From Candidatus Odinarchaeia archaeon (GTDB lineage: Archaea > Asgardarchaeota > Odinarchaeia > Odinarchaeales > Odinarchaeaceae): DNA of 38,369 nucleotides. Below, piece by piece: positions 17,259 through 22,331 of the stretch. Every line of letters begins with the position of its first letter. Positions within the stretch are counted from its first letter, which is position 1. The stretch covers positions 1-38,369 of the forward strand of contig JAHQXC010000003.1 of the NCBI GenBank assembly GCA_029856525.1, given 5' to 3'. The notes under the pieces are model-generated. The model saw only the letters and a program-made list of their open reading frames with translations, made no database searches and was not told the origin of the DNA. The translations under genes were made by a program, and so were the position numbers.

Positions 17259-17540
17259 TCTTCTTCTCCTCCTATCAGTGTAAATAGGCTTTTTTTATTC
17301 CTTTTTAAACACTTCTGTTCGTTTAAAGAATTATTATAAAATAAGCTTAAACTTGTTCATAAATTTTTTTATACATTTTTAAATGCTTTTTTTATTTTTA
17401 AACTGTTTTTTATCGTTTTATTTTATGGGAATATGCTTTAATTCTCTTATTTTATGTTTATTTTAAATATTATCGGAATCTTTATATCGAACAATTGCAC
17501 AATTTTTATTAGAATTATTATATTTTTTTTCGGTGCCGTT

Positions 17541-19115
17541 ATGCTGAAAACCGAATTCCAGTCAATCATCGAGACAACAATTAAAGATTATCTTGATAAG
17601 AAGACCGTGTGGAGTGAATTTTTAGAATCACCTATAATATTTAACGACGATCATATTCAAATAGCTCGTAGAATATTTCAAAAATATGTTTCGAAGATAA
17701 TCCCTGAAACTATACTAGAAGACCTCGAATACCTGCTATTATATAAGCTATCTGACGCTTCGATACGCCAAAGATTACTGGAAGAGTGGAGTAATAAAAG
17801 GAATTCAAATATAGAAGACGCTACTAAAATCACATATGAATTCGAAGACGGATCGTGTTATAGAGCTGTCTACGATCTTATTCTTTATGATAAAATGACC
17901 AGCGGCTTATTCCTTCCAACGATTTTAGAAAACATGAAGAAATTAGAGAAATATAATTATACTCTCGATTTAAAAGACGCATGCCATTATATACGTCTTC
18001 ACTCTCTTTTAACCTATACAGTTGAGTTGGATACAACGGATATCAAAATCATAGAATTGCTGAGCAAAGACCCTCTTATCTCAAATAACGAGGCTGCTAG
18101 CCGGCTCAGATTATCGAGAAATACTTTTTCAAACCGTCTGCTAAGACTTCAGAAAAGAGGCTGCTTATTTTTCAATGGCAGAATAAACCTTGAAAGACTA
18201 GGTTTAAAAATTTTAACGATCATGACAGATCAGATTATTCCAAAGCTACCATATATGAGAATTGTTCAAGAGCTTAGAGGAGGGTCAACCGTCTACCTTT
18301 ATTCGTTTAACATTCCTGAAGAGTTTCTAACCTCTTTTATTGAACTGGTTAAACCTTATATAAGAAACGCTGAATACTGGATTGATGAAGGACCTGGACG
18401 GCACTCTCTCTCACTAAGAAATTCCTATGATACTGTGAATAAGAAATGGGCGTTCAACTGGGAGAACTGGGCGTTATGGGTGAGAAAGGTTTTAGATGAA
18501 TCATGGCATACGCTTTACGTTTCAGGTGATGTAGAGGAATCAACTCCAGGGGGAGAGCATAATCTCAGAATATTAGATTATGATATACTAGACTTAGAAT
18601 TATTAAATCAGCTAAGCTATGACTTCAAGCAGCCTATACGGGATATTTCACTTAAACTAGGGGTTTCACCTACCACTGTTTATGAGCGTAAAATTCGTTT
18701 AATATCTAACGGTGTTGTTAAACCAACTTTATTCGTTGAAAATATAGGGTTAGATGAACATGTATTTATTAAAATTAAAGGATCGGAGAAAATCATAAAT
18801 TCTGTGGAATCAGGCTTACTAGATCTGCCGAGTGTGTACATTTTTCGGGTTAGAAATTTGCAAGGGGAGAAAGCACTTAACGCATATCTTTTTCTTCCTA
18901 AAGGGAGTCTTGTAATGGTTGATTACACTCTTAAAAACTATTTGGAAGATATGAGTGAGGAGGTTGATTTCAAGCTTTTCTACAGGCTTAAGCAAAACTA
19001 TCTCTCTCAGGGTTTACCGTTCACCTTCGAAAACACGTATTTATATAAGGAAGAGTTTAGAAAATGGATTTTCCCGCAAAAAACTATTATTAAAATATTA
19101 AAAGAAGGTAGCTGA
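17541..19115 (+). CDS. Large transcriptional-regulator-like protein with two separated Lrp/AsnC-type HTH modules
   Basis: HTH 1 'DTTDIKIIELLSKDPLISNNEAASRLRLSRNTFSNRLLRLQKRG'; HTH 2 'DYDILDLELLNQLSYDFKQPIRDISLKLGVSPTTVYERKIRLISNGVV'. The ORF track starts at 17454; ATG 17541 preferred. Confidence 0.75.
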   Translation: MLKTEFQSIIETTIKDYLDKKTVWSEFLESPIIFNDDHIQIARRIFQKYVSKIIPETILEDLEYLLLYKLSDASIRQRLLEEWSNKRNSNIEDATKITYEFEDGSCYRAVYDLILYDKMTSGLFLPTILENMKKLEKYNYTLDLKDACHYIRLHSLLTYTVELDTTDIKIIELLSKDPLISNNEAASRLRLSRNTFSNRLLRLQKRGCLFFNGRINLERLGLKILTIMTDQIIPKLPYMRIVQELRGGSTVYLYSFNIPEEFLTSFIELVKPYIRNAEYWIDEGPGRHSLSLRNSYDTVNKKWAFNWENWALWVRKVLDESWHTLYVSGDVEESTPGGEHNLRILDYDILDLELLNQLSYDFKQPIRDISLKLGVSPTTVYERKIRLISNGVVKPTLFVENIGLDEHVFIKIKGSEKIINSVESGLLDLPSVYIFRVRNLQGEKALNAYLFLPKGSLVMVDYTLKNYLEDMSEEVDFKLFYRLKQNYLSQGLPFTFENTYLYKEEFRKWIFPQKTIIKILKEGS

Positions 19116-21014: not shown

Positions 21015-21386
21015 ATATTCTGCTTCCAGTCTATAATAATTAAAAATATTTAATATTATCTCAAAGTATATAAGCTATAACCTGAATTAAAAGTTTAGAC
21101 TAATACACACCTTTAGTTTTAAGATAGGAGAGGCATCGATTAAAAATTGTTTTATTATAGCGGTGTGTAAAAACGTTTAAATCATGGATGCCACGGTTAA
21201 ATAATTATATTGTTAACGAGATAAAAACAGGTTTTTAGAAATATTTTATCAAAGCCATCATAGAAATCCATGGGTTTAAAGATATGAATGCTTCCGCTTT
21301 AACTTCACAGCAGACTATCTGATGTAGATAGGTGAGAGTTGATATTCTTATAAAGCTATATAAATTATAATTATAAATAAGGATGA

Positions 21387-21472
21387 GTGGTGGAAGCGGC
21401 CCTGAAACCTGTGAAGAGAAGAACTCTTCTCAATGAACAGGACTCATCTGTGAAAAACAAGTTGTAGATCAC
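21387..21472 (+). mobile_element. Probable degenerate IS200/IS605 right end (TnpB tail relic), alternatively a structured RNA
   Basis: Frame VVEAALKPVKRRTLLNEQDSSVKNKL* (KPV...-type tail like the 15.5-kb relic), ending GTTGTAGATCAC; strong secondary structure (GATGAGT...ACTCATC, CCTGT...ACAGG, GAGAAG-AACT-CTTCTC). Confidence 0.4.
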
Positions 21473-21510
21473 CCGCTAATATTTGTTTAAAAATAATCGA
21501 GGCGTCTGTT

Positions 21511-21957
21511 TTGAAACTTATAGAGCTGACTAAGAAAGTAGTACACTGTCTCAGGAATTCGCCTAAACCTTTATCTGCAGTTGAAATAAGCAAGCAAATA
21601 AATCTCCCTATTGAAAAGAAGCGGAGAATCTATGATGTTTTAGACGTATTAGAGGTTTTAGATGTTATAAAAATATCTCGGCGTGGTAATGAGAAATTAG
21701 CTCAATGGATTTCTTCAACAGAGAAACCTGTTGTAAAAGAGTCTTTAGCTGTTGAGAGAAAAATAGAGGATAAGCCTCACTGCGTTGTTAACGTTGACTT
21801 AGTTTTCCCTTCATCCGATTATAAGAATTTAAGTAATCCAACCTGGCAGGAAATGATGATTAGAGATGTTAAAAGAAACATTAAGGGTTTACTGGATATA
21901 ATCGTTAACGATATTAAATTAACGGAGGCTAAGAGGATTCTAGCAGCCAGTCAGTAA
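21511..21957 (+). CDS. Winged-helix protein with E2F/DP (E2F_TDP)-type DNA-binding domain
   Basis: 'LTKKVVHCLRNSPKPLSAVEISKQINLPIEKKRRIYDVLDVLEVLDVIKISRRGNEKLAQW', matching the E2F/DP signature (R)RIYDxxxVLExxxxIxKxxxxxxxW. Confidence 0.65.
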   Translation: MKLIELTKKVVHCLRNSPKPLSAVEISKQINLPIEKKRRIYDVLDVLEVLDVIKISRRGNEKLAQWISSTEKPVVKESLAVERKIEDKPHCVVNVDLVFPSSDYKNLSNPTWQEMMIRDVKRNIKGLLDIIVNDIKLTEAKRILAASQ

Positions 21958-21959
21958 CC

Positions 21960-22331
21960 TTAGCTTTTATCGCTGCCTAGTATTTCAGATATATCCGCTT
22001 CTTCCTTCCCCCTTCTCTTAATTTTAATTTCAGGTCCGCGTCCCTCTATTCTTCTCTCTAAAAGCATTATATCAGTCTTAGATATTTTAGATTGAAGGCC
22101 ATACTGGTTGACTATCATTATGATTATATTCTCTATTTCCGCTGCTACAGAGGGTTTTAACTTATAAAGTTCGTTAAGATATTTTAACGCGTCTTCTTCG
22201 CAGACTAATCCGAAAAATTTAGCTTTCTCCTGTTTCACCTTCTCCTGGTATTCTTTTAATTTAGCCTGCTCGTTGATTCTCTGAATCATCTCCTTCATTT
22301 TCTTAAGTCTTATCCGCTCTAATTCATCCAT
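21960..22331 (-). CDS. PDCD5-like DNA-binding protein
   Basis: MDELERIRLKKMKEM N-terminus; 'DALKYLNELYKLKPSVAAEIENIIIMIVNQYGLQSKISKTDIMLLERRI...IKIKRRGK' matches PDCD5/TFAR19 layout. Confidence 0.6.
   Translation of the reverse strand: MDELERIRLKKMKEMIQRINEQAKLKEYQEKVKQEKAKFFGLVCEEDALKYLNELYKLKPSVAAEIENIIIMIVNQYGLQSKISKTDIMLLERRIEGRGPEIKIKRRGKEEADISEILGSDKS

Follow-up and report, generated by a model that had tools for sequence, protein, structure and literature searches.

A compact Asgard archaeal protein with a predicted E2F/DP-type winged-helix domain and a C-terminal domain of its own

The window, by which we mean the whole 38,369-nucleotide stretch of Odinarchaeia DNA that was analysed, carries at 21511-21957 an intact open reading frame of 148 codons between a TTG start and a TAA stop (Table 1). 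An earlier reading made from the letters alone (the sequence-only reading) had given these coordinates exactly and had called the product archaeal; the genome is, more precisely, that of an Asgard archaeon of the Odinarchaeum type. Because the sole congener compared (G001, also Odinarchaeum-type) encodes a protein that is 84% identical in the same 148-aa frame with the same TTG start, we regard the gene as real. The reverse strand of the region has many stops in the frame examined. Upstream, a GAGG is a putative Shine-Dalgarno-like site, and an A/T-rich element is a candidate promoter by comparison of only two genomes. Further upstream, an intergenic stem-loop (21381-21449, + strand; z of -2.75 against shuffles) has an outer stem, GATGAGT/ACTCATC, and inner pairings CCTGT/ACAGG and GAGAAG/CTTCTC. 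It has no Rfam match and is not kept in G001; an Rfam search of the whole window likewise gave no match. Downstream, a convergent gene for a PDCD5-like protein ends 2 bases from the stop of the E2F-like gene.

Table 1. Features at the E2F-like locus, in window coordinates
Feature	Position	Strand	Basis or remark
A/T-rich element plus short GC tract (ACCCGCTAATATTTGTTTAAAA), candidate promoter	21471..21492	+	partly kept in G001
GAGG, putative ribosome-binding-like site	21499..21502	+	8 nt 5' of TTG; kept in G001
E2F/DP-type winged-helix protein gene	21511..21957	+	148 aa, TTG start, TAA stop
E2F_TDP winged-helix domain (PF02319), residues 4-66	21520..21708	+	hmmscan
Predicted recognition helix, residues 34-49	21610..21657	+	AlphaFold2, block mean pLDDT about 86-88
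RRIYD motif, residues 38-42	21622..21636	+	R38, R39, Y41, D42 invariant in 25 Asgard relatives
Predicted wing, strands 53-58 and 61-66, with invariant closing W66	21667..21708	+	AlphaFold2 and alignment
C-terminal domain, residues 91-147	21781..21951	+	AlphaFold2 (beta-alpha-alpha-beta-alpha) and alignment
PDCD5-like double-stranded-DNA-binding protein gene (PF01984)	21960..22331	-	tail-to-tail with the E2F-like gene

The N-terminal domain matches Pfam E2F_TDP at 36.3 bits (hmmscan, E = 4.8e-9, residues 4-66), above the curated gathering threshold of 25.7 bits, and all other families fall below their own cut-offs, the next best at 0.009. The sequence-only reading had assigned the first ~70 residues to this domain; the first 66 suffice to exceed the cut-off, E2F_TDP is the clear top family, and no generic winged-helix family matches better. 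An alignment of 25 diverse Asgard rows shows R38, R39, Y41, D42 and W66 to be invariant, the last being the closing tryptophan of the wing that the same reading had pointed out. Searching the PDB with the window sequence alone ranks E2F8 and E2F4 at the top, weakly. A profile built from the 25 rows, with zero eukaryotic sequences, was searched against 177,635 PDB sequences and gave significant matches only to E2F8 (2.1e-12), E2F4 (6.2e-9) and DP2 (0.0011). Judged by sequence, the window domain and the DNA-binding domain of eukaryotic E2F/DP are homologous, and the resemblance is not due to chance.

The AlphaFold2 model has helices at residues 3-15, 23-29 and 34-49 and strands at 53-58 and 61-66. 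Because the third helix contains residues 38-42, the model puts RRIYD on the recognition helix, as had been predicted. When the model was compared with the PDB by Foldseek, no E2F structure was among the top 50 matches, which were led by winged helices of various families, above all MarR/ArsR/Fur-type regulators and Z-alpha-like domains. Fold alone would class the modelled domain with winged helices in general. Since small domains of this fold are difficult to tell apart by structure, the homology call rests on sequence.

The Foldseek ranking bears on the rival explanation that survives best, in which the protein would be a generic archaeal regulator of the TrmB/MarR-like kind whose RRxYD signature arose convergently. 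TrmB is also the commonest second Pfam match among the relatives that we call B-type below, in 29 of 31 rows, if weakly (best 1.5e-5). However, the match to E2F_TDP covers the whole domain, closing tryptophan included, and the Asgard profile is significant only for E2F/DP chains. Its distribution also argues against a generic regulator. Other archaea have many generic winged-helix genes, yet PF02319 exceeded the cut-off in none of 165 genomes of other archaeal phyla (one sub-threshold match) and in none of 14 control genomes, against 76 of 228 Asgard genomes and 32 of 62 Asgard genera. Among Asgard archaea the family is therefore widespread, with gaps that may in part reflect how incomplete many of the metagenome-assembled genomes are; the sampled archaea of other phyla lack it. 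We consider convergence improbable, because a profile free of eukaryotic sequences retrieves only E2F/DP chains. The sequence-only reading had left ancestor, transfer and convergence side by side; the profile evidence speaks against the last and favours common descent over it.

E2F/DP proteins, the eukaryotic cell-cycle switch proteins, drive the G1/S switch of animals and plants, and they bind DNA with two domains. The window protein shares with them (PF02319; PDB 1CF7, 4YO2) the winged helix, the (K/R)RRxYD motif, the VLE/VLxxL that follows it and the closing tryptophan of the wing. It differs in a wing that is about 3 residues longer and a short insert ahead of the recognition helix. Since it begins at helix 1, it also lacks the N-terminal arginine arm that in E2F enters the minor groove (PMC4686757). 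At only 148 aa it leaves scant space for a region that would bind a pocket protein (Rb). It has no marked box and no DP partner, and AlphaFold2 predicts a beta-alpha-alpha-beta domain where E2F/DP has a coiled coil and marked box. The genome, which is 93% complete, holds a single PF02319 match, and neither a second E2F/DP-type gene nor a separate DP partner was found in it; a scan of viral contigs for relatives found none. Given the missing marked box and the lack of a second copy, the window protein is a domain relative and not a full E2F.

The C-terminal ~60 residues had been described as having no known function, and indeed neither Pfam nor NCBIfam has a family that they match above cut-off; the whole protein likewise matches nothing in NCBIfam above cut-off. 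The AlphaFold2 model of this part is moderately confident (block mean pLDDT 57-75), and the conserved positions are L107, N109, M115, R118, D119, K121, R122 and G126, which include an RDxKR motif. The beta-alpha-alpha-beta domain is common only to the window protein, Odinarchaeum and six Hermodarchaeota members, which we call A-type and which also have a 3-residue insert ahead of the recognition helix relative to the other, B-type, relatives. Most relatives are B-type (for example L040, L021 and L034); in most of these the winged helix is joined to a beta domain of about 45 residues at the C-terminus, in many members through a coiled coil. The model of L040, for instance, has a 38-residue helix at 81-118, predicted to form the coiled coil, and four strands. 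PF02319 matches all 31 B-type and all 8 A-type rows, and a profile of A-type proteins alone finds E2F8 (3.9e-5) and E2F4 (7.5e-4) in the PDB. By hhalign the two types match at E = 2.5e-15, with the alignment confined to the winged helix. The Asgard E2F-domain family thus has two architectures, and the window protein belongs to the compact A-type. Coiled coil and beta domain of the B-type together bring to mind the coiled coil and marked box of E2F; a search for homology between the B-type beta domain and the marked box found none, however, so we treat the likeness as resemblance only.

The description of E2F/DP as eukaryotic regulators, from which the sequence-only reading set out, is out of date. 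In its accessible text, the 2024 review The Archaeal Cell Cycle reports E2F homologues in some Asgard genomes (PMC7617429), so such proteins are a kind already known, and the window protein, from the same phylum and with the same domain, is one of them. That text gives their presence only and does not describe the two architectures, the synteny or the candidate operator discussed below. The literature that could be searched, with few subscription journals and no supplements, yielded neither the A-type form, its C-terminal domain and its pairing with PDCD5, nor a phylum survey of E2F_TDP or the f3 element considered below. Among Asgard E2F relatives the A-type stands apart as a distinct variant, by its compactness, its C-terminal domain and its conserved neighbour gene.

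We favour, with reasonable confidence, a reading in which the window protein is a small archaeal transcription factor, probably homodimeric, that docks on DNA through the RRIYD of an N-terminal winged helix homologous to the E2F/DP DNA-binding domain. It would most likely be sequence-specific, with the recognition helix entering the major groove. In E2F8 and in the DP2 subunit of the E2F4/DP2 complex, the arginines of RRxYD make contacts to guanines (PMC4686757). On the model of these proteins, the two arginines of RRIYD would read guanines in a CG-containing core, and the window protein probably binds a site of this kind. The C-terminal domain probably makes the homodimer, or else carries a partner or ligand site; as the genome has no second E2F/DP-type gene, a homodimer, probably through this domain, is the simplest reading.

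A candidate operator comes from the B-type family f3: of 40 upstream regions, 33 contain YCGVWWWWYCG, 58 copies in all, against a shuffled mean of 0.9 regions and a maximum of 3; shared ancestry of the promoters inflates the count. The element is near-palindromic and repeated, with two or more copies in several promoters. It precedes the E2F-like gene by about 80-160 nt (for example in L084, L114 and L133), typically with a conserved promoter-like stretch, AATACAAACA-YCTAAATA, close behind it. An autoregulatory operator is one possible role, but the element may just as well serve the divergent neighbour gene. No family other than f3 has it, and it is missing from the region ahead of the window gene. 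The canonical TTTSSCGC is absent from the window gene's own promoter, which says nothing about binding, and nearly absent across the promoters of Asgard E2F-like families. Genome-wide scans (TTCGRAAAATCG, TCGVAAAATCG) found few sites per genome, and most of those inspected lie within coding regions, so we claim no f3 regulon. In G198 (L167/L196, motif at 1501) one intergenic TTCGAAAAATCG site precedes an actin-like gene by 95 nt, a single case that may be due to chance.

The f3 element also bears on a second rival, in which the E2F-derived winged helix would serve as a chromatin or general transcription component and not as a gene-specific regulator. The neighbourhoods lend this some colour: besides the PDCD5-like double-stranded-DNA-binding protein, an Alba gene lies less than 8 kb away in 6 families, Hermodarchaeota included, and a TBP gene lies two genes upstream of the E2F-like gene in families f12 and f6. 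However, the base-contacting RRxYD is invariant and f3 has a specific, repeated promoter element, and we regard this explanation as quite improbable.

The neighbouring genes are informative mainly about inheritance. The convergent E2F-like/PDCD5-like pair recurs in both Odin genomes and in 5 of 6 Hermodarchaeota loci (7 of 8 overall), whereas the usual neighbour of B-type relatives is a cyclophilin-like gene (PF04126), which adjoins in 51 loci of 8 families, mostly in convergent orientation. A gene for a CxxCxxCC protein adjoins the E2F-like gene in 6 families. Because convergent genes are not an operon, the neighbours give no functional reading. Together with the wide spread over genera and the deep divergence, these conserved neighbourhoods suggest old vertical inheritance within the Asgard phylum. 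Passage of the gene from eukaryotes to Asgard archaea, as opposed to the reverse or common descent, would suit a domain otherwise best known in eukaryotes and is compatible with the domain tree, but the same spread, divergence and synteny (cyclophilin-like in 8 families, PDCD5-like in Odin and Hermod) make it very unlikely. The domain tree itself, built on 60-70 residues with five eukaryotic rows, of which E2F1, Arabidopsis E2Fa and DP1 were approximate sequences, did not resolve its branching and was set aside for ancestry.

A more far-reaching idea, which we offer as speculation and think rather unlikely, is that Asgard archaea hold direct ancestors of E2F/DP in the form of homodimeric, autoregulated replication or division switches. 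In that case the coiled-coil form would have given rise to the coiled-coil/marked-box architecture of E2F/DP, and the compact Odin/Hermod proteins would stand on a branch of their own. A defined Asgard family makes a pre-eukaryotic role of the E2F/DP switch directly testable. The window protein is short enough to be expressed whole and its f3 relative offers a candidate operator, and the points open to test are the DNA read, homodimerisation and the genes that an Asgard E2F-like protein regulates.

Two other genes near the locus are worth recording. In G001 the E2F-like gene is directly preceded by a gene for a Ras/Rab-like small GTPase whose coding sequence is split between two frames (L078:12734-13272); the matching gap in the window (21015-21510) has no such ORF. 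Both Odin genomes also have, near the E2F-like gene, a gene for a 553-aa protein with two AsnC/HTH_24-type helix-turn-helix stretches, which in the window lies at 17454-19115 on the + strand.
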